From: Bathymodiolus japonicus methanotrophic gill symbiont
GTDB taxonomy: Bacteria > Pseudomonadota > Gammaproteobacteria > Methylococcales > Methylomonadaceae
Assembly (NCBI RefSeq): GCF_019721995.1
Contig: NZ_BLYC01000004.1
Coordinates: 186,001 to 250,000, forward strand
DNA: 64,000 bases
Direction: 5' to 3'
The notes under the pieces were generated by a model, which saw nothing but the letters and a program-made list of their open reading frames with translations, did no database searches and had not been told where the DNA came from. The translations under genes were made by a program, and so were the position numbers. This document shows positions 1,061-64,000 of the stretch, in pieces. Position 1 is the stretch's first letter, and each line of letters starts with the position of its first letter.

Positions 1061-2759
1061 CCGACTAGAGTTTGACTCTGGTCGCGAGGATTTAAATAGC
1101 TGGTTACAACGAGTTGCACGGCAGCACCAGGAAAAGGGCTTATCAAAGACCTTCGTAGCGACCCACGAAGATATACCGAATCGTATCTACGGGCTACTAT
1201 GCATTAACACTTGCCGAGGTTGAGAACCGTCATTTACCAGAAGCTAGGCGCAAGAAGTTGCCACGCAGGATTCCGGGTGTGCGTCTGGGACGCCTGGCCG
1301 TTCATAAACAACATCATGGTCATCAGTCTTCCCATTGAAAGAAGAAGTACCTAAACAAAGCAGCCTATAACCTACCTGAAGGTAGCACCACTCGAATATT
1401 TCCATTATTTCCATCTTTTTGATTTTAATCACTTATAACAGCAAATAGACACTCTGTAGGCACCGTAAAAAAACAACAAATAATTTCAAATAAAGCTTGC
1501 AATTGCCGAAGAAATTTTCTAAAAATTTCCGTTTTAATCACCTCATAAACGGATATCACCCATGCTTAAAGACCTACCACTCTCTGAACATATTCACCAA
1601 CACTGCAATGAAAGTATGGAACGTGCCCTGTTAGCAGAGCGTCATCCTTTGTGGGCTCGTTCATGCCCAGAGTTGAAGGATATCGACTTTATTCGCCTTG
1701 GGTTATTACGCTGTATCAGTGTAGTCGATAGTGGTCGCCATTTCCCCCAAACCAATGAACAGATTTATGGCCAGCTGCTTCCCCACTCAACGTATTTTAA
1801 ATCACTGAAGTCGCATAGACGAACAAGTATGCTTGAGGCATTTGAACAGCAGAGCTATCATCTTCACGCTGAAACACTTCTATCACTCGATGTTCAAGTT
1901 TTTGATATTGAGAAGGTAAAATCAGGTATTCTGAGGTTGTTGTAATTTTATCGGTGTAATCCCATGTTAATGAATGCCCCAGCCACCTTTATCCAAAGCT
2001 ATATTGACGATTTAAATGATGCGCTCAATCAGCTAAAACCCGGAGCCGCTTTGACACGGATTCAAGCCGCTTGGTTGGGCACTTGTTTAACGTGCATACT
2101 GCTAATGAACTCTGTTTGCTGGGCTAAGTTTGAGCGAGCAAGCCTTGGAGATTGCAAAGTAGCCGCATTATCCTGGGTGTTTCGTAAAGCAAGTATACCC
2201 TGGGACTGGTTGCTACGGGTGAGTGTGGTCTTAATTTTAAAACGTTATGGCATTACTGAAGGTGTGTTGGCCTTTGATGAATCAGACCGAGCACGATCTA
2301 AGTCTACAAAACGTATTTATAAGGTTTACAAGCAGAAACACAAAGGCTCCGGCGGGTATGTTAATGGACAAACGATAGTATTATTGCTGCTAGTTACCTC
2401 ATCCATTACAGTGCCTGTCGGTTTTTTCTTTTATATGCCGGATCCAGCCTTAAAGCAGTGGGATAAAGAAGATAAACGGTTGAAAAAGAGCGGTATAGCA
2501 AAAAAAGATCGGCCTATTAAGCCTGAACGTGACAGTGCCTACCCGACCAAAACAGAGATTGCATTAGGCTTATTAAAAGAGTTTAAAGTTGCGCATAGCC
2601 TGATTAAAATTAAAGGCGTACTGGCTTGATGCGCTGTATGGTGAAAAAGCCTTTATGGACGAAGCCGCTAAAGAATCTGGAGGCTCGCAGGTGATTAGCC
2701 AATTACGTAAAAACCAAAATATTGAATATAGAGGTAGAATAAGGTCAGTCGAGAGCTAC

Positions 2760-3039
2760 CGCTGAAAATCATGGAAACGGAGCTTAGCGAAGTGGTGATT
2801 TTTAGTCCCTGATAGGCGACAGGGCAATTTGCTGATTCGACGTGTGCTAGCAGCACGCGAGAGGAGCAAGAATTGCATTCCGAATAGCCGTCCAGCCAGT
2901 GAGGTAGTAATGACGAAGCGGCTTTTGTGCGTAGTCGTTGCGGACGCAGGGCGTTCAGGGCATCTCCCATCCGCTGCGTAGGTGAACGAATTATGGCGAC
3001 AGGAGTCCCGGAATTTCGTGAGGTAGCATGGCGCGCCTG
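2760..3039 (+). other. 280-bp structured scarless insertion element, copy 1
   Basis: Begins CGCTGAAAATCA and ends GGCGCGCCTG. It lies in the second-level transposase between tac (Tyr) and ttt (Phe). Exact removal of 280 bp gives VESYFNSINKG in frame, with no target duplication. Helices visible: 2765-2771 with 2796-2802 (AAAATCA/TGATTTT), 2841-2847 with 2853-2859, 2911-2919 with 2929-2937 (two mismatches), and 2944-2949 with 2974-2979 (ACGCAG/CTGCGT). One base differs from copy 3 at 63382-63661. No open reading frame of its own. Not recognised as group I or II intron: no GTGYG start, no domain V, and the upstream base is not T. Function unknown. Confidence 0.8.
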
Positions 3040-3457
3040 TTTAATTCGATTAACAAAGGCATTGATCAGATAATACGTGTACGTGGCGGAAAAGAGATTA
3101 AAGTGACTGTCAGCAGTGCACGATTAAAGGTGAGTTCACACAGTAAAAAACGCTTTGTCATTGCCTTAAAATATGACGGTGAAAACGACTATCGCTATTT
3201 AGTGGCGACAGACCTGACTTGGCGCACACAAGATATTATTCAAGCCTATACGTTGAGATGGCTGATTGAGGTTTTCTTTGAGGACTGGAACCTTTATGAA
3301 GGATGGGGGCGTGAGGCCAAACAATTAGATGAAGAGGGATCAAGCCGTGGCCTGATTCTGAGTCTTTTGTTTGACCATTGCCTTCTCCTTCACCCAGAGC
3401 AAATAGCCCGCATTGAAAGCAAACTACCTGCGTATACCGTAGGAAGCTTACAGCGCA

Positions 3458-3717
3458 CGCTGTCAGCCCCGGACGGGCTGATAGTCTCCAGAAGGCGCAG
3501 GGAAATTTGCCAATCCGAAGTGCGCGATAGCGCGCGAGGGAGGCTAAAATTTTATCCCGAATAGCCGTAGAGCCATTTGTGGTAGCCATGACTGAGCTGC
3601 TTTGTGCTCAGTCTGTGGCGGACGCAGGGCGGCTGGAGCATCTCCTATTCGCTGCGTAGGTGAACGAATTACGGCGACAGGAGTCCCGGAATTTCGTGAG
3701 GTAGCATGGCGCGCCTG
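3458..3717 (+). other. 260-bp structured scarless insertion element, copy 2 (diverged)
   Basis: Same ends as copy 1 (CGCTG ... GGCGCGCCTG) and an almost identical last ~70 bp, but the 5' half is diverged. Inserted between cgcA and AGtct of the same transposase gene: exact removal gives LQRKSQMDVLLEF in frame with no duplication. The first helix is TCAGCCC/GGGCTGA (3463-3469, 3475-3481) where copy 1 has AAAATCA/TGATTTT. The second is 3520-3525 with 3530-3535 and the third GACTGAGC/GCTCAGTC (3590-3597, 3606-3613). The 20-bp length difference from copies 1 and 3 is mostly the first loop (5 nt instead of 24). Confidence 0.8.
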
Positions 3718-3873
3718 AGTCTCAAATGGATGTACTGCTTGAGTTCATCACGTCATTGCTAGAGTTTCCAGATCCTGGTGATAAGCTGAAAGAGTTAGGT
3801 GAATTAATAAAGGATGTGTTTCAACTGATGCCATCAGGAAAACATATGATTGGCAGAGATTTAGGGCGCTTAG

Positions 3874-5982
3874 CCTATCTTCGTCACTTTTATCTCTTCA
3901 AGTCATTGATTTATAATTCGCATTAAAAATTCATCGTAAAAATCCCTTTAGAATCAATGGTGTTTTTTTTGAGGGTCTCTGTAGTGCCATCTTAACTTGC
4001 TCTGACCCTTGATTTTCCCTGATTTTTCACCGATGCTAGTGGTATGTATATTCGAAGAACCAAAACAAAAAGCCTTGAAGACGGCTCAGCTTATTTCACT
4101 TACCGCATTGTAGAATCTGTGCGTATAGGAAAACAAGTCAAGCAACGTACATTGCTCAATATAGGTGCGGACGTTACGATTGATAAAAAGTACTGGCCCT
4201 TGCTGACGGCCAGAATCGAACAATTACAGCAAGGTTTGGAACCACATCAGGAAGAGCTATTCAATTTAGCCGATGATTTAAATCAACTTCTGGAAGCAAC
4301 AGCCCAGCGCTATAGCTCACTGATGACTGCAAAACTGTCACAACCGCTAGATTCAAAAACAACAACGCGAGATTTTCATCATGTCGATATTAATCATGTC
4401 GAAGCCATTAATGCCCGTAGTATTGGTGTTGAAACCCTGGCACTGCATGCCGCACAGCAGTTACAGCTAGACGAAAAACTCATGGCGCTGGGCTTTAATA
4501 AAGTAGATACGGCGACGGCCCTGGGCACTATCATAGGACGTATGGTTTCACCCGGCAGTGAACTGCAAACACATGACTGGTTGCAAAATCGAACAGGCCT
4601 GGGCGAATTACTGGGTCATGACTACGGTAACACCAGCCTGACGCGATTATATACAGTCAGTGACAAGCTACTCAAACGTCAGGCAACTCTTGAATATTTT
4701 CTGGCTGACCGAGAGCAGACGTTGTTCAATTTAAACCGCAAGATTGTATTGTACGATCTGACCAATACTTATTTTGAAGGCCAGTGCGCCCGAAACCCGA
4801 AAGCGAAATTCGGTCGCTCTAAAGAGAAACGCACTGATTGCCCGTTGGTTACTCTGGGGCTGGTTCTGGATGGTGACGGCTTTCCATTGAGTAGTCAGGT
4901 TTTTCCCGGCAACGCCAGTGAGCCCGCGACCTTGAAACTGATGCTTGACGAACTGCGAGACAAGGATCCCTTTCATCAAATAAAGCCGGTGGTTATCATG
5001 GATGCCGGCATTGCCAGCGCTGACAATATTGTCTGGTTAATCGAACAAGATTATCATTATCTCGTTGTCAGTCGAGAACAACATGTAAAAAACCCAAGAG
5101 ATCAGAAAACTCCGGTAGCGGTCAGGGATACCCGGGACAGCAATGTTGTTGTTTATCGTGAAGTTGATCAAGAAACCGAGGAAACCCGACTCTATTGTCA
5201 TTCAGAACAAAAAGCAAAAAAAGAACAAGGTATCCGTAATCGCTTCCATGCTCGTCTGGAAGAGGCCCTGGAAAAACTGCACACAGGTCTGAGCAAAAAA
5301 GGCACCCTTAAAAAATACGACAAAATACTGGAACGTATCGGACGACTACGTGAAAAACATAGCCGTGTTGCTGCAGATTACACCATTAACGTTATCGCGG
5401 ATGACAAAAAAAACAAAGCCATCGGTATAGAATGGCAACGTAAACCTGAAAGTGACCAAAAAGATAAGCACTGTGGTGTTTACTGCCTAAGAACGAATAT
5501 CCCTGACTGGTCGGAAGAACAGTTATGGCTAACCTATACCATGCTGACTGAGATTGAAGCGACCTTTAGAAGCCTGAAAACCGAGCTAGGCTTGCGCCCT
5601 GTCTATCACAAAAAAGAAGAGCGGGTTACCGGACACCTATTCATCACATTATTAGCTTACCACCTGGTACATGTACTGCGTTATCAACTTAGATTTCAGG
5701 ACATCCATCTAAGCTGGGAAAGCATTCGCAACAGGATGTCGACCCAGCAACGCATGACCATTACTTTACCCACGGATAACGATACAATCATTCACCTGCG
5801 AACCACAAGCAAAGCAGAAACCAGACAAAAACAAATATACACTGCGTTGAATATTAACCCCGACCCGATTGGAAAAGTTAAAACGATCGTTGATATGAAA
5901 CCTGTAGTGCCAACTGGGGCCGATTGAAAAATTTAACTCATTGAAATAATGGGAAATTGACTGTATATGTCACGAAGATAGG
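3874..5982. mobile_element. IS1634-family insertion sequence, 2109 bp, apparently intact
   Basis: Terminal inverted repeats CCTATCTTCGT(C/G)AC at 3874 and, inverted, ending at 5982. Flanked by TTAG (3870-3873 and 5983-5986). The surrounding transposase frame reconnects across it as DLGRLGPTPSLKY. One full-length transposase gene (4044-5927) is present, so this is the only element in the nest that looks potentially active, and it is among the innermost insertions. Confidence 0.9.
4044..5927 (+). CDS. IS1634-family transposase
   Basis: A 627-residue DDE transposase, a usual length for IS1634. Order of landmarks: N-terminal MYIRRTKTKSLEDGSAYFTYRIVES region; IVLYDLTNTYFEG (first catalytic Asp, about residue 237); KPVVIMDAGIAS (second Asp); a long Lys/Glu-rich inserted helical region; YTMLTEIEATFRSLKTELGLRPVYH (catalytic Glu with the downstream Lys/Arg). 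The frame is undisturbed from ATG to TGA. Start at 4044 follows a short leader after the left end of the IS. It could mobilise its own element. Confidence 0.93.
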   Translation: MYIRRTKTKSLEDGSAYFTYRIVESVRIGKQVKQRTLLNIGADVTIDKKYWPLLTARIEQLQQGLEPHQEELFNLADDLNQLLEATAQRYSSLMTAKLSQPLDSKTTTRDFHHVDINHVEAINARSIGVETLALHAAQQLQLDEKLMALGFNKVDTATALGTIIGRMVSPGSELQTHDWLQNRTGLGELLGHDYGNTSLTRLYTVSDKLLKRQATLEYFLADREQTLFNLNRKIVLYDLTNTYFEGQCARNPKAKFGRSKEKRTDCPLVTLGLVLDGDGFPLSSQVFPGNASEPATLKLMLDELRDKDPFHQIKPVVIMDAGIASADNIVWLIEQDYHYLVVSREQHVKNPRDQKTPVAVRDTRDSNVVVYREVDQETEETRLYCHSEQKAKKEQGIRNRFHARLEEALEKLHTGLSKKGTLKKYDKILERIGRLREKHSRVAADYTINVIADDKKNKAIGIEWQRKPESDQKDKHCGVYCLRTNIPDWSEEQLWLTYTMLTEIEATFRSLKTELGLRPVYHKKEERVTGHLFITLLAYHLVHVLRYQLRFQDIHLSWESIRNRMSTQQRMTITLPTDNDTIIHLRTTSKAETRQKQIYTALNINPDPIGKVKTIVDMKPVVPTGAD

Positions 5983-21471: not shown

Positions 21472-21640
21472 GTTTAAGCGCTCCAAATTTGGAAATTATT
21501 TATCTGAGAAACTATATATGAAAAAAAATAGTCTTTTCATTCGTTTCAAATGCTATTGCCTAAGGGGAATTAAGTAGGGGTTTGCTATAAACATGGCAAA
21601 ACCACCTAAAATAAACCTCGATACACCAGCATTGTGTATT

Positions 21641-22069
21641 TCAGCTACTCAATAATTGGGAAACTTCAGCTTCTATAAACTGTTGGCCTGTGATCTGGTA
21701 ACCACGTAACTCCAGAACGCCTTTAGTTTTAAGCGTGATGATAATATATAGCGCATCTGGATAATTAGCTTGCTGTATATCTGTGCAGGACGGTATTGCT
21801 GGTTCTGTAGGATGTGAGTGATAGATAGCAAATAGCTGCTCATTGTTTTTGCGCATCTCTGCCATCGCCTGAATCTGTTGCTGAGCATCCAGATGAAAAA
21901 ATCGTTCTGGGTGGTCTGCTGTGTTTTTTATAGGGTAACAGCGACAGGGCGTGTTTTTCCGGCTGCTAATCAGTCCGCAAACTTCCTGCTCGGGTGTTTG
22001 CTGGGCATGATGTAGTAGGTTTTGTACGATTTTTCTTGGGATGGTAACTTCTTGATTTTGTTCTGACAT
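21641..22069 (-). CDS. JAMM/M67-family metalloprotease, C-terminus replaced by IS sequence
   Basis: About 142 residues of a JAB1/MPN/Mov34 zinc protease. Catalytic elements seen: PEQEVCGLI (Glu region) and the JAMM motif HSHPTEPAIPSCTD. Bacterial members process ubiquitin-like sulfur carriers or cysteine-synthase partner proteins. The last residues (AEVSQLLSS) are encoded by the right end of the IS630-like element. Reading across the 10-bp repeat instead gives QQFIEVPLHLN and a stop at 20000-20002. The core fold is untouched, so activity may survive. ATG 22069 is preferred; an upstream ATG at 22093 overlaps prmC by 16 nt. Confidence 0.85.
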   Translation of the reverse strand: MSEQNQEVTIPRKIVQNLLHHAQQTPEQEVCGLISSRKNTPCRCYPIKNTADHPERFFHLDAQQQIQAMAEMRKNNEQLFAIYHSHPTEPAIPSCTDIQQANYPDALYIIITLKTKGVLELRGYQITGQQFIEAEVSQLLSS

Positions 22070-31573: not shown

Positions 31574-32794
31574 ATGGCTAAAGAAAAATTTGAACGTAAT
31601 AAACCACATGTAAACGTCGGCACAATTGGCCACGTTGATCACGGCAAGACCACTCTAACTGCGGCACTGACAAAGGTGATGGCAGAAAAGCTAGGTGGTG
31701 AAGTAAAAGCATTTGATCAGATTGACAATGCACCTGAAGAGCGTGAGCGTGGAATTACAATTGCAACATCGCACGTAGAATATGAATCAGACACGCGTCA
31801 CTACGCACACGTAGATTGCCCGGGTCACGCGGATTATGTGAAGAACATGATTACCGGTGCTGCGCAAATGGATGGTGCAATCCTGGTGTGTGGTGCAACA
31901 GACGGCCCTATGCCGCAAACAAGAGAGCATATCCTGTTATCAAGACAGGTAGGTGTTCCATATATCGTAGTGTTCCTGAACAAAGCTGATCTACTAGCCG
32001 AAGATTGCGGTGGTGTAGGAACAGAAGAATACAACGAAATGCTAGAGCTCGTTGAAATGGAAATTCGCGAAATTCTAGACCAGTATGAGTTCCCTGGTGA
32101 TGACACGCCAATTATCGTCGGTTCTGCTCTGAAAGGACTGGAAGGTGACGATAGTGAGCTAGGTGTTCCGTCAATTATTAAATTAGTAGAAGCGTTAGAT
32201 AGCTATATTCCCGAGCCAGAAAGAGCGACGGAAGGTGCTTTTTTAATGCCGATTGAAGATGTATTCTCAATCTCGGGTCGTGGTACTGTTGTAACCGGCC
32301 GTATTGAGCGAGGAATTATCAAGGTTGGCGAAGAAATCGAAATCGTTGGTATTAAAGACACGGTTAAGACAACGTGTACGGGTGTTGAGATGTTCCGCAA
32401 GTTGCTTGACGAAGGTCAGGCGGGCGATAACGTTGGTATTCTGTTAAGAGGAACCAAGCGTGAAGAAGTTGAGCGTGGTCAGGTACTGGCACATGTTGGC
32501 TCAATCAACCCACATACAAGATTTAAGGCTGAAATTTATGTGCTGGCTAAGGATGAAGGTGGTCGTCATACGCCATTCTTTAATGGCTATCGCCCACAGT
32601 TCTATTTTAGAACAACTGATGTGACAGGTGCTGTAGAGTTACCAGAAGGTACAGAAATGGTGATGCCTGGTGATAACGTATCTGTAGAAGTAACCTTGAT
32701 TGCGCCGATTGCGATGGAGCAAGGTTTGCGCTTTGCTATCCGTGAAGGTGGTCGTACGGTTGGTGCGGGCGTTGTTGCAGAAATTATTGAGTAA
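31574..32794 (+). CDS. tuf: Elongation factor Tu, copy 1
   Basis: 406 residues. Delivers aminoacyl-tRNA to the ribosome. GTPase motifs GHVDHGKTT (P-loop), [12 protein letters not shown] (switch II) and NKADLL. Slightly longer than the E. coli protein because of small insertions, e.g. around [15 protein letters not shown]. Differs from copy 2 (48176-49396) at nine residues, all after about residue 196. It lies between tRNA-Thr and tRNA-Trp in the conserved tufB position. Confidence 0.98.
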
Positions 32795-48175: not shown

Positions 48176-49396
48176 ATGGCTAAAGAAAAATTTGAACGTA
48201 ATAAACCACATGTAAACGTCGGCACAATTGGCCACGTTGATCACGGTAAGACTACTCTAACTGCTGCGCTGACAAAGGTGATGGCAGAAAAGCTGGGTGG
48301 TGAAGTAAAAGCATTTGATCAGATTGATAATGCGCCAGAAGAGCGTGAGCGCGGAATTACAATTGCAACATCACACGTAGAGTATGAATCAGACACGCGT
48401 CACTACGCACACGTAGATTGCCCTGGTCACGCGGATTATGTGAAGAACATGATTACCGGTGCTGCGCAAATGGATGGTGCAATCCTGGTGTGTGGTGCAA
48501 CAGACGGTCCTATGCCGCAAACAAGAGAGCATATCCTGTTATCAAGACAGGTAGGTGTTCCATATATCGTAGTGTTCCTGAACAAAGCTGATCTACTAGC
48601 CGAAGATTGCGGTGGTGTAGGAACAGAAGAATACAACGAAATGCTAGAGCTCGTTGAAATGGAAATTCGCGAAATTCTAGACCAGTATGAATTCCCTGGT
48701 GATGACACGCCAATTATCGTTGGCTCTGCTCTGAAGGGACTGGAAGGTGATGATAGTGAGCTAGGTACGCAGTCAATTATTAAATTAGTGGACGCATTAG
48801 ACAGCTATATTCCCGAGCCAGAAAGAGCGACGGAAGGTGCTTTTTTGATGCCGATTGAAGATGTATTCTCAATCTCGGGTCGTGGTACTGTTGTAACCGG
48901 CCGTATTGAGCGAGGCATTATCAAGGTTGGCGAAGAAATCGAAATAGTTGGTATTAAAGATACTGTTAAGACAACTTGTACAGGTGTTGAGATGTTTCGC
49001 AAGTTGCTTGATGAAGGTCAGGCGGGCGATAACGTTGGTATCCTGTTAAGAGGAACCAAGCGTGAAGAAGTTGAGCGTGGTCAGGTACTGGCGCATGTTG
49101 GCTCAATTAATCCGCATACCAAGTTCTCTGCTGAAATCTATGTGTTGGCTAAAGATGAGGGTGGTCGTCATACGCCATTCTTTGATGGTTACCGTCCGCA
49201 GTTCTACTTCAGAACTACAGATGTAACTGGCGCAGTTAAATTGCCCGAAGGTACGGAGATGGTAATGCCTGGTGATAACGTATCTGTAGAAGTAACCTTG
49301 ATCGCGCCAATTGCGATGGAAGAAGGTTTACGTTTTGCGATCCGTGAAGGTGGTCGTACGGTTGGTGCCGGTGTTGTTGCAAAAATTATTGAGTAA
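48176..49396 (+). CDS. tuf: Elongation factor Tu, copy 2
   Basis: 406 residues, same motifs as copy 1. The first ~590 nt are nearly identical in DNA to copy 1. All nine amino-acid differences are in the later part (e.g. GTQS for GVPS, HTKFSAE for HTRFKAE, AKIIE for AEIIE), the pattern left by gene conversion. Occupies the tufA position after fusA and ends only 5 nt before rpsJ. Confidence 0.98.
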
Positions 49397-63152: not shown

Positions 63153-64000
63153 ATGAAAAAAACAACTGAAAACATAATAATATATTTAGCCCGTCAAAAA
63201 GGCCAAAATAAAAAAATATGGCGCGAAATGATACAGGAGCTAATGGAAAGCAGAGAGTTAATTTGGCGACTGGTTATTCGAGACTATTCTGTACTCTATC
63301 GCCAATCTATACTCGGATATATCTGGGCTGTCTTACCACAACTTGTTACCGTAGCTATCTTTACTTTTTTAGCAAAACATCCGCTGAAAATCATGGAAAC
63401 GGAGCTTAGCGAAGTGTTGATTTTTAGTCCCTGATAGGCGACAGGGCAATTTGCTGATTCGACGTGTGCTAGCAGCACGCGAGAGGAGCAAGAATTGCAT
63501 TCCGAATAGCCGTCCAGCCAGTGAGGTAGTAATGACGAAGCGGCTTTTGTGCGTAGTCGTTGCGGACGCAGGGCGTTCAGGGCATCTCCCATCCGCTGCG
63601 TAGGTGAACGAATTATGGCGACAGGAGTCCCGGAATTTCGTGAGGTAGCATGGCGCGCCTGGTGTTTTTGATATGGGAGAAACTGCCATGCCGTATGTGA
63701 TACACGCGTTATGGAGTGTTTCTGTCTGGCACTTATTTTCGGGGTGCCTAATTGGCTGTACTAATAGCCTTGTTAATGCTGGGTCTTTAGTGACTAAAAT
63801 TAATTTTCCTAAGGAAGCATTGGTCTTCTCTGCCATTGGACAGGCCGTATTATATTTTATTATTCGATTGCTACCAGTCACTATCGTCTTTATTTGGTAT
63901 GGCTTCATTCCCTCATGGCATAGCCTGCTGATTCCTTTTATCTTAATTAGCATTATACTTTATGGCTTTAGGCGTTGGCTTTACCATGGCGATTATTAAC
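63153..64000 (+). pseudogene. ABC-2 type polysaccharide export permease (Wzm-like), interrupted and frameshifted, runs off the window
   Basis: Permease of an O-antigen/polysaccharide ABC exporter. N-terminal MESRELIWRLVIRDYSVLYRQSILGYIWAVLPQLVTVAIFTFLAKH is typical. At 63382 it is interrupted by a 280-bp structured element; exact removal gives AKHRVFDMGETAMPYVIHALW in frame. The next part has FSGCLIGCTNSLVNAGSLVTKINFPKEAL. Near 63960 a one-base shift ends the frame (GFRRWLYHGDY), while the neighbouring frame continues ALGVGFTMAIIN, so a second lesion exists unless this is a sequencing error. The partner ATPase would be expected just beyond the window. Confidence 0.85.
63382..63661 (+). other. 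280-bp structured scarless insertion element, copy 3
   Basis: Differs from copy 1 (2760-3039) at a single base (T at 63416 where copy 1 has G), with the same ends and length. Lies in the permease gene between catC and gtG, in the sense orientation, with no target duplication. Excision regenerates a CGT (Arg) codon. Near-identity to a copy 60 kb away in an unrelated gene shows recent spread. Confidence 0.82.

Follow-up and report, generated by a model that had tools for sequence, protein, structure and literature searches.

IS200/IS605 insertion sequences target specific 4–5-mers, and group II introns have GUGYG..AY ends and a known lagging-strand bias in retrotransposition. Here we describe a family of folded elements of ~260–310 nt, three of which lie in a window of 64,000 nucleotides (positions 186,001 to 250,000 of contig NZ_BLYC01000004.1) from the genome of the Bathymodiolus japonicus methanotrophic gill symbiont (GCF_019721995.1; 4.97 Mb in 109 contigs; the symbiont genome below). 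The family shares with non-autonomous, PATE-like members of IS200/IS605 (i) the lack of a target duplication, (ii) a bias for the lagging-strand template and (iii) the order tetranucleotide, left-end hairpin, right-end hairpin, tetranucleotide. It is almost certainly a non-autonomous mobile element and not an intron, and on balance we favor the view that these elements are moved in trans by an HUH-like mechanism acting on single strands.

According to excerpts of PMC6006769, IS200/IS605 transposases recognize the sequence they cleave only indirectly: a guide located at the foot of a hairpin contacts the left-flank tetranucleotide, a similar guide contacts the last tetranucleotide of the right end, and insertion goes into the lagging-strand template. 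The REP and REPIN sequences associated with RAYT (TnpA-REP) resemble the present family in being hairpin-based, non-autonomous and present in hundreds of copies per genome, and the palindromic derivatives described below recall the 'double foot' REPs of the same excerpts. Unlike a REP of ~20–130 nt, however, the element is ~300 nt long, has a core that is conserved across 27 families and carries CGCTG at its 5′ foot, where the excerpts give GTAG or GTGG for the foot of the REP hairpin (PMC6006769).

Window copies and exactness of insertion

The coordinates originally predicted for the three window copies proved exact, as did their common ends, CGCTG...GGCGCGCCTG. The features are as follows.

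2756..2759, + strand: target tetranucleotide CTAC (rule C-N-N-N) in the left flank, outside the element; C at −4 in A copies
2760..3039, + strand: A-type element of 280 nt in a multi-copy transposase-like gene; 47 exact empty sites
2760..2808, + strand: 5′ domain, with terminal CGCTG and hairpin CTGAAAATCA...TGATTTTTAG, from alignment and consensus fold
2804..2962, + strand: multibranched core, the stretch behind covariance model R1, from alignment and covariance model
2963..3039, + strand: 3′ domain with terminus GGCGCGCCTG, from sequence and alignment
3036..3039, + strand: terminal tetranucleotide CCTG, with C at −4 of the 3′ end; CCTG in 149/152 ends
3454..3457, + strand: target tetranucleotide CGCA in the left flank of the B copy; C at −4 in 96% of B copies (n = 54)
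3458..3717, + strand: B-type element of 260 nt in the same transposase-like gene as the first A copy; 39 exact empty sites
63378..63381, + strand: target tetranucleotide CATC in the left flank of the third copy, from sequence
63382..63661, + strand: A-type element of 280 nt in a permease-like gene, by comparison with the copy at 2760

The two 280-nt copies are about one base apart (501 versus 506 bits). The 260-nt B copy is 91% alike A over the final 103 nt and identical to it in the first five bases; the sequence of its first hairpin is unlike that of A, with the pairing kept.

When the 20 nt on either side of an element were joined, the resulting sequence was found uninterrupted elsewhere in 1.26 Mb of the symbiont genome 47 times for the site at 2760 and 39 times for the site at 3458. 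Insertion at these sites was therefore exact, with neither duplication nor loss, and the predicted lack of a target-site duplication holds for both; joined flanks of the site at 63382 occur uninterrupted nowhere in the same 1.26 Mb, there being no second copy of that site in this DNA. Deletion of the elements does restore the reading frames exactly, as had been claimed, but any exact, duplication-free insertion would give this result, which is therefore no evidence of splicing.

The interrupted host genes appear to be damaged in other ways as well. The transposase-like gene, pieces of which reached Pfam DDE transposase models only below the cut-offs, has an extra T near 2626 that is present in 10 gene copies, the window's included, and missing from 36, so the window's copy was broken independently of the elements. 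The gene interrupted at 63381, which resembles a polysaccharide-export permease, seems from its sequence to carry a further frame change near 63945; its two pieces had no Pfam match.

Copy number and families in the symbiont genome

The elements are abundant far above chance. Allowing ≤3 mismatches, the 26-nt 3′ end is found at 830 places in the symbiont genome (446 forward and 384 reverse), and the reversed pattern, used as a control, at none. The 152 3′ ends in 864 kb of this genome comprise 67 elements of 280 nt (family A), 54 of 260 nt (B), three of 283 nt (C), 13 without a recognized 5′ end and others of different length; 149 of the 152 read CCTG. In 1.26 Mb the core of a further family, D, was matched 124 times; the first boundary call gave a length of 292 nt for 104 of these. 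Family D has ~60 nt in common with A at the 5′ end, followed by a different body. Empty sites add three bases to the 3′ end of D, mostly CGA or CAA, giving ends that are mostly CCGA or CCAA; thus, families A, B, C and D all finish in a tetranucleotide that mostly starts with C. Over the symbiont DNA examined, joined flanks span a match elsewhere for 56 of 130 A, B and C copies and for 58 of 107 D copies.

A single conserved base in the target

The left flank has C four bases before the junction (position −4) in 70/70 A copies of the symbiont genome, in 96% of its B copies (n = 54) and in 98% of its D copies (n = 107), the A and B tables being drawn up without six other full copies. None of the other flank positions is fixed, and G is rare at −1 in this genome. 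The same cytosine is found in 40/43 copies of the genome G094 and, across the class (Gammaproteobacteria), at 37 of 38 scored sites, where ~26% would be expected from base composition. Fifty of 55 matches entered the class-wide count, four repeats of the same places and one partial match being excluded, and 12 of the 50 were left unscored (11 without a recognizable start and one duplicate). For the lone miss, and for two of the counted successes (L245 and L272), the start had been placed too far upstream, and the likely starts picked by eye keep C at −4. Relatives vary the ends within the same pattern: a divergent copy from G039 has CATA as its left flank and CTTC as its 3′ end, and the elements of Methylotuvimicrobium buryatense (G027), which include 309-nt copies, have a 3′ end of their own, CTTG.

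Placement relative to genes and the replication strand

For placement counts, open reading frames (ORFs) were taken as stop-to-stop stretches of ≥120 codons rather than as annotated genes. The elements avoid such ORFs: 174 of the 295 symbiont copies with enough flank lie outside any spanning ORF, 74 are antisense and 47 sense, whereas 1891 of 2772 random positions (68%) fall inside ORFs and 881 outside. The picture is similar in G094, where 17 of 40 copies are outside ORFs, 16 antisense and 7 sense, with 1554 of 2000 random positions (78%) inside. The sense placement pointed out for the window copies is thus correct for all three, but does not extend to the genome. Sense copies are rarer than antisense ones within the ORFs of both genomes, though random positions in the symbiont genome fall more often in leading-strand ORFs, and sense copies inside genes are, if anything, depleted. 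Leading-strand genes of the symbiont hold 36 sense and 31 antisense copies and lagging-strand genes 11 sense and 43 antisense; orientation therefore tracks the chromosome strand and not the gene.

With the elements themselves masked, orientation agrees with the G-rich strand of the block for 166 symbiont copies and disagrees for 67; for blocks with |skew| > 0.06, 85 of 102 agree. On most of the contigs sampled one orientation prevails, with + and − copies numbering 58/16 on C1, 29/4 on C4, 29/6 on C2, 2/18 on C5, 0/11 on C12, 0/8 on C7, 0/4 on C9 and 4/9 on C6. In G094, which is a single closed chromosome with clean skew, 37 copies fit the G-rich strand and 11 do not. By the established geometry of replication, the lagging-strand template is identical in sequence to the G-rich strand, and the preference for that strand suggests that the + strand of the element goes into this template.

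Folded structure

Aligned relatives fold alike: a hairpin at the 5′ end, then the multibranched core, then a hairpin domain at the 3′ end. Covariation was assessed on 11 D-like sequences and the G039 copy, using 500 shuffles and slid controls. Among the alignment cells of the 64 predicted pairs, 91.7% have standard pairing, as against 76.8% in shuffles, and 38 of the 64 pairs show compensatory changes on both sides, as against 20.2 in shuffles; none of the 500 shuffles reached any of the measures. In the slid controls the paired fraction drops to 31–45%, a margin that is due in part to the structure having been predicted on that very alignment. G-U cells outnumber A-C cells by 69 to 14, which argues that the + strand is the strand under selection to fold. 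When sequences are folded singly, an A copy is ordinary (z −0.02) and a B copy unusual (z −4.46). No element tested had a match in Rfam; in particular no intron family matches, in agreement with the earlier view that known introns do not fit, and the Rfam group II matches found near elements lie beside them, not on them.

Distribution

A covariance-model search was run with R1, which represents the element core in 158 positions. It matched 41 of 369 genomes of the class, belonging to 33 of 272 genera and, by our own tally, 27 families. Many of these genomes have multiple copies, and a small number of the matches are weak, with E near 1e-4. On a phylum-wide draw of 398 genomes R1 matched the symbiont genome alone. 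Since the listed rows of that draw are of the same class, the draw evidently covers other parts of the class, and 11% should not be read as the true share of carriers. By BLAST, relatives were found in 13/17 genomes of the same genus, 6/19 of the same family and 2/24 of the same order.

A pattern for the 5′ module matched at least 40 stretches, and the matches listed are mainly from Methylococcales: methanotrophic gill symbionts of Bathymodiolus, M. buryatense, Methylomonas and Methylicorpusculum, plus two differently named records, one a thiotrophic symbiont and the other a Rhodospirillales metagenome-assembled genome. Plasmids of Legionella antarctica, Methylobacter and Methylomonas matched by blastn, and R1 confirms the element at three Legionella and Methylobacter plasmid loci. 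Among viral contigs the 20-nt 3′-end pattern is absent and seven stretches have the 5′ module, four of them on one contig; one query of phage records gave no match. No description of the element family was recognized in the literature, as covered by titles and abstract openings, with preprints and most subscription papers outside the scope.

Candidate mobilizing enzymes

The presence of candidate enzymes was compared between the 41 R1 carriers and 15 non-carriers, the latter picked non-randomly from the listed R1-negative genomes. Y1 transposases (PF01797) were found in 32/41 carriers and 7/15 non-carriers, reverse transcriptase (RVT_1) in 27/41 and 7/15, and IS110 transposase (PF01548) in 22/41 and 5/15. 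RVT_1 had no match in G094 (closed, with 43 copies in the stretches examined), G185, G386, G388, G070 or G090, and PF01548 had none in element-rich G094, G090, G386 or G388. IscB (PF14239) occurs in 7 of 61 relatives, among them G011 and G028, with one and two element matches, and in neither the symbiont genome nor the element-rich genomes G004, G006, G008, G015, G016, G022 and G027. Each of the four enzymes is missing from some carriers and none is clearly linked to the element, and as obligate partners all four were rejected.

Genes adjoining the elements were scanned for 29 of 56 candidate ORFs, from 24 of 26 loci, plus one plasmid gene. Of the 29, 18 belong to ordinary families, nine have no match, one is an rve transposase and one a group II reverse transcriptase. 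Two plasmid copies have other neighbors: in L. antarctica (L345, ~3845–4107) those next to the element are an IS91 transposase and an integrase, and in Methylobacter (L346, ~3828–4109) it lies ~60 nt from a TnpB gene. These neighbors are possible leads to the mobilizer. In M. buryatense (L234, near 1700, − strand) a group II intron with a reverse transcriptase interrupts the 5′ hairpin of an element, from which it follows that such introns can land in element hairpins; the relation to the element was judged a coincidence both here and at L260, where a group II intron adjoins one.

Models for mobility

Two readings had been offered originally, a self-removing, intron-like RNA and a non-autonomous element moved without target duplication, and it is the latter that copy number, the flank rule, strand bias and empty sites support. 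A self-splicing RNA that keeps its host genes functional would account for exact frame restoration at the window sites, but as a general account it is already refuted and we give it almost no weight. Copies in antisense and outside ORFs are numerous, with antisense outnumbering sense (74 versus 47 in the symbiont, 16 versus 7 in G094) and 174/295 copies outside ORFs against 881/2772 random positions; orientation tracks the replication strand; no intron family matches; and the window's transposase-like host gene carries its independent frameshift.

In the HUH-like model that we favor, an enzyme supplied in trans would act at the replication fork, where it would recognize the element ends folded in single-stranded DNA, would cut after CNNN both at the target and at the element end, and would then exchange strands. 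The logic would be that of the IS200/IS605 HUH (Y1) transposases, with the target reduced to one fixed base. It is because of the geometry common to the two that we judge such a mechanism the most likely, with an RNA-borne mechanism as its main rival; to judge by the conserved core, a transcript or protein–RNA complex may participate. A number of observations sit poorly with the HUH-like model. Unlike IS200/IS605, the element fixes one target base of four, and between its hairpins is a conserved core of ~160 nt, larger than end recognition needs. The left hairpin starts 2 nt from the end, which leaves little space for a 5′ guide. Y1 is absent from 9 of the 41 carriers, including G368, which has eight scored matches, five of them read and near-identical. 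Copies do not flank a RAYT gene as REP sequences do: of 49 loci with Y1 genes in relatives, only 4 contain any element sequence, and its occurrence at 10 of 20 Y1 loci of the symbiont is by our estimate about what copy density would give. No TnpA with element ends, and no autonomous partner combining the same ends with Y1, was found among the Y1 loci examined, and the neighbor scan (29 ORFs and the plasmid TnpB) links no partner enzyme and shows no shared gene. Strand bias is also uneven: contig C3 has 6 + and 19 − copies despite weakly positive skew, C8 has five of each, and in M. buryatense only 11 copies fit the G-rich strand, against 7 that do not.

An RNA retroelement is the rival with the most to commend it, though we think it rather unlikely. 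A folded transcript would reverse-splice or be copied into the lagging-strand template with borrowed reverse transcription, much like a bacterial short interspersed element (SINE) or an ORF-less group II intron, the RNA being either a ribozyme or protein-bound. The large covarying structure, the many G-U pairs on one strand and the conserved core are consistent with this, and the structured strand, the lagging-strand bias and the lack of a duplication are all features of ORF-less group II introns. The element is, however, too short for such an intron and has the wrong ends, without the GUGYG..AY hallmarks; no domain V or other Rfam intron match lies on it; the six carriers named above have no RVT_1 match; and within ORFs its antisense copies outnumber the sense ones, whereas spliceable copies should show the reverse. 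Also doubtful, in our estimation, is that the elements are replicating RNA-like parasites, spread class-wide, with no need of known mobile-element enzymes. The core might then serve as a guide RNA, a ribozyme or the scaffold for a novel ribonucleoprotein, and would place its own strand in the lagging-strand template behind C-N-N-N.

A miniature element of another duplication-free recombinase, such as IS110 with its bridge RNA, IS91 (Y2), IS607 or an integron-like tyrosine recombinase, is improbable. Absence of a duplication and a structured strand recall IS110 bridge RNAs, which are structured RNAs at the element ends, and integron attC sites, and the L345 copy adjoins an IS91 transposase and an integrase; but the insertion sites share one base, with no guide-length match of the kind expected for IS110/IS1111, and the IS110 transposase, the one enzyme of this group that was searched for genome-wide, is lacking in G094 and three other carriers. 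We regard as very improbable that the element is an orphan guide RNA of an IscB or TnpB nuclease, comparable to the HEARO-like omega RNAs, which are mobile structured RNAs of similar length. The element is ~300 nt long, the putative RNA would begin at the element boundary, and the L346 copy is close to a TnpB gene; yet HEARO and the rest of Rfam are unmatched, IscB is absent from the symbiont and element-rich relatives, and 0/29 ORFs beside the 24 other loci encode TnpB.

Derivatives and other repeats

In the block L043 and others, elements are often nested in each other and in repeats, in both orientations, forming composite arrays. Truncated solo fragments (31 with the 3′ part only, 22 with the 5′ part only and six internal) favor no single mechanism. 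Seven palindromic derivatives of 29–183 nt were seen (L050, L073, L081, L026, L014, L072 and L125), and in every one C occupies −4 and G occupies +4; in those of 183 nt the arms, as read by eye, are different variants joined at GGCC. These derivatives probably fit inverted pairs with a central deletion, and 100-nt A copies without a core, found at two sites, fit deletion between 9-nt direct repeats; both were dropped as clues to mechanism. So was a stub at L230 (G006, 1902–2046, − strand), a single oddity in which a C-type element breaks off after its initial 45 nt and 50 bp of left flank are then repeated. It lies directly upstream of a Y1 (RAYT-like) gene that is itself flanked by ordinary REP-like sequences.

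Two other repeats are present in the window. The ORFs at 31574–32794 and 48176–49396, each of 406 aa, are 96% alike over their first 300 nt and, being near tRNA genes and an RNA polymerase gene, are probably a duplicated tuf. The stretches at 504–653 and 21523–21672 are inverted copies of 150 nt, 99% complementary, and are probably parts of insertion sequences.

Implications

If full-length, the 830 matched copies would make up ~4–5% of the symbiont genome. The family is present in 33 genera among those sampled, its left end obeys a single simple rule, and Rfam has no match for it; it works like a single-strand miniature element, with proven membership in none of the families tested. Its insertions also call for caution in annotation, since scar-free, frame-restoring insertions may mimic introns. 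Were the elements RNA-like parasites after all, they would be a bacterial counterpart of SINEs with new insertion chemistry. Methylotuvimicrobium buryatense 5G, a cultivated methanotroph, carries the family, and the copying of a 300-nt folded strand is therefore directly testable in the laboratory.
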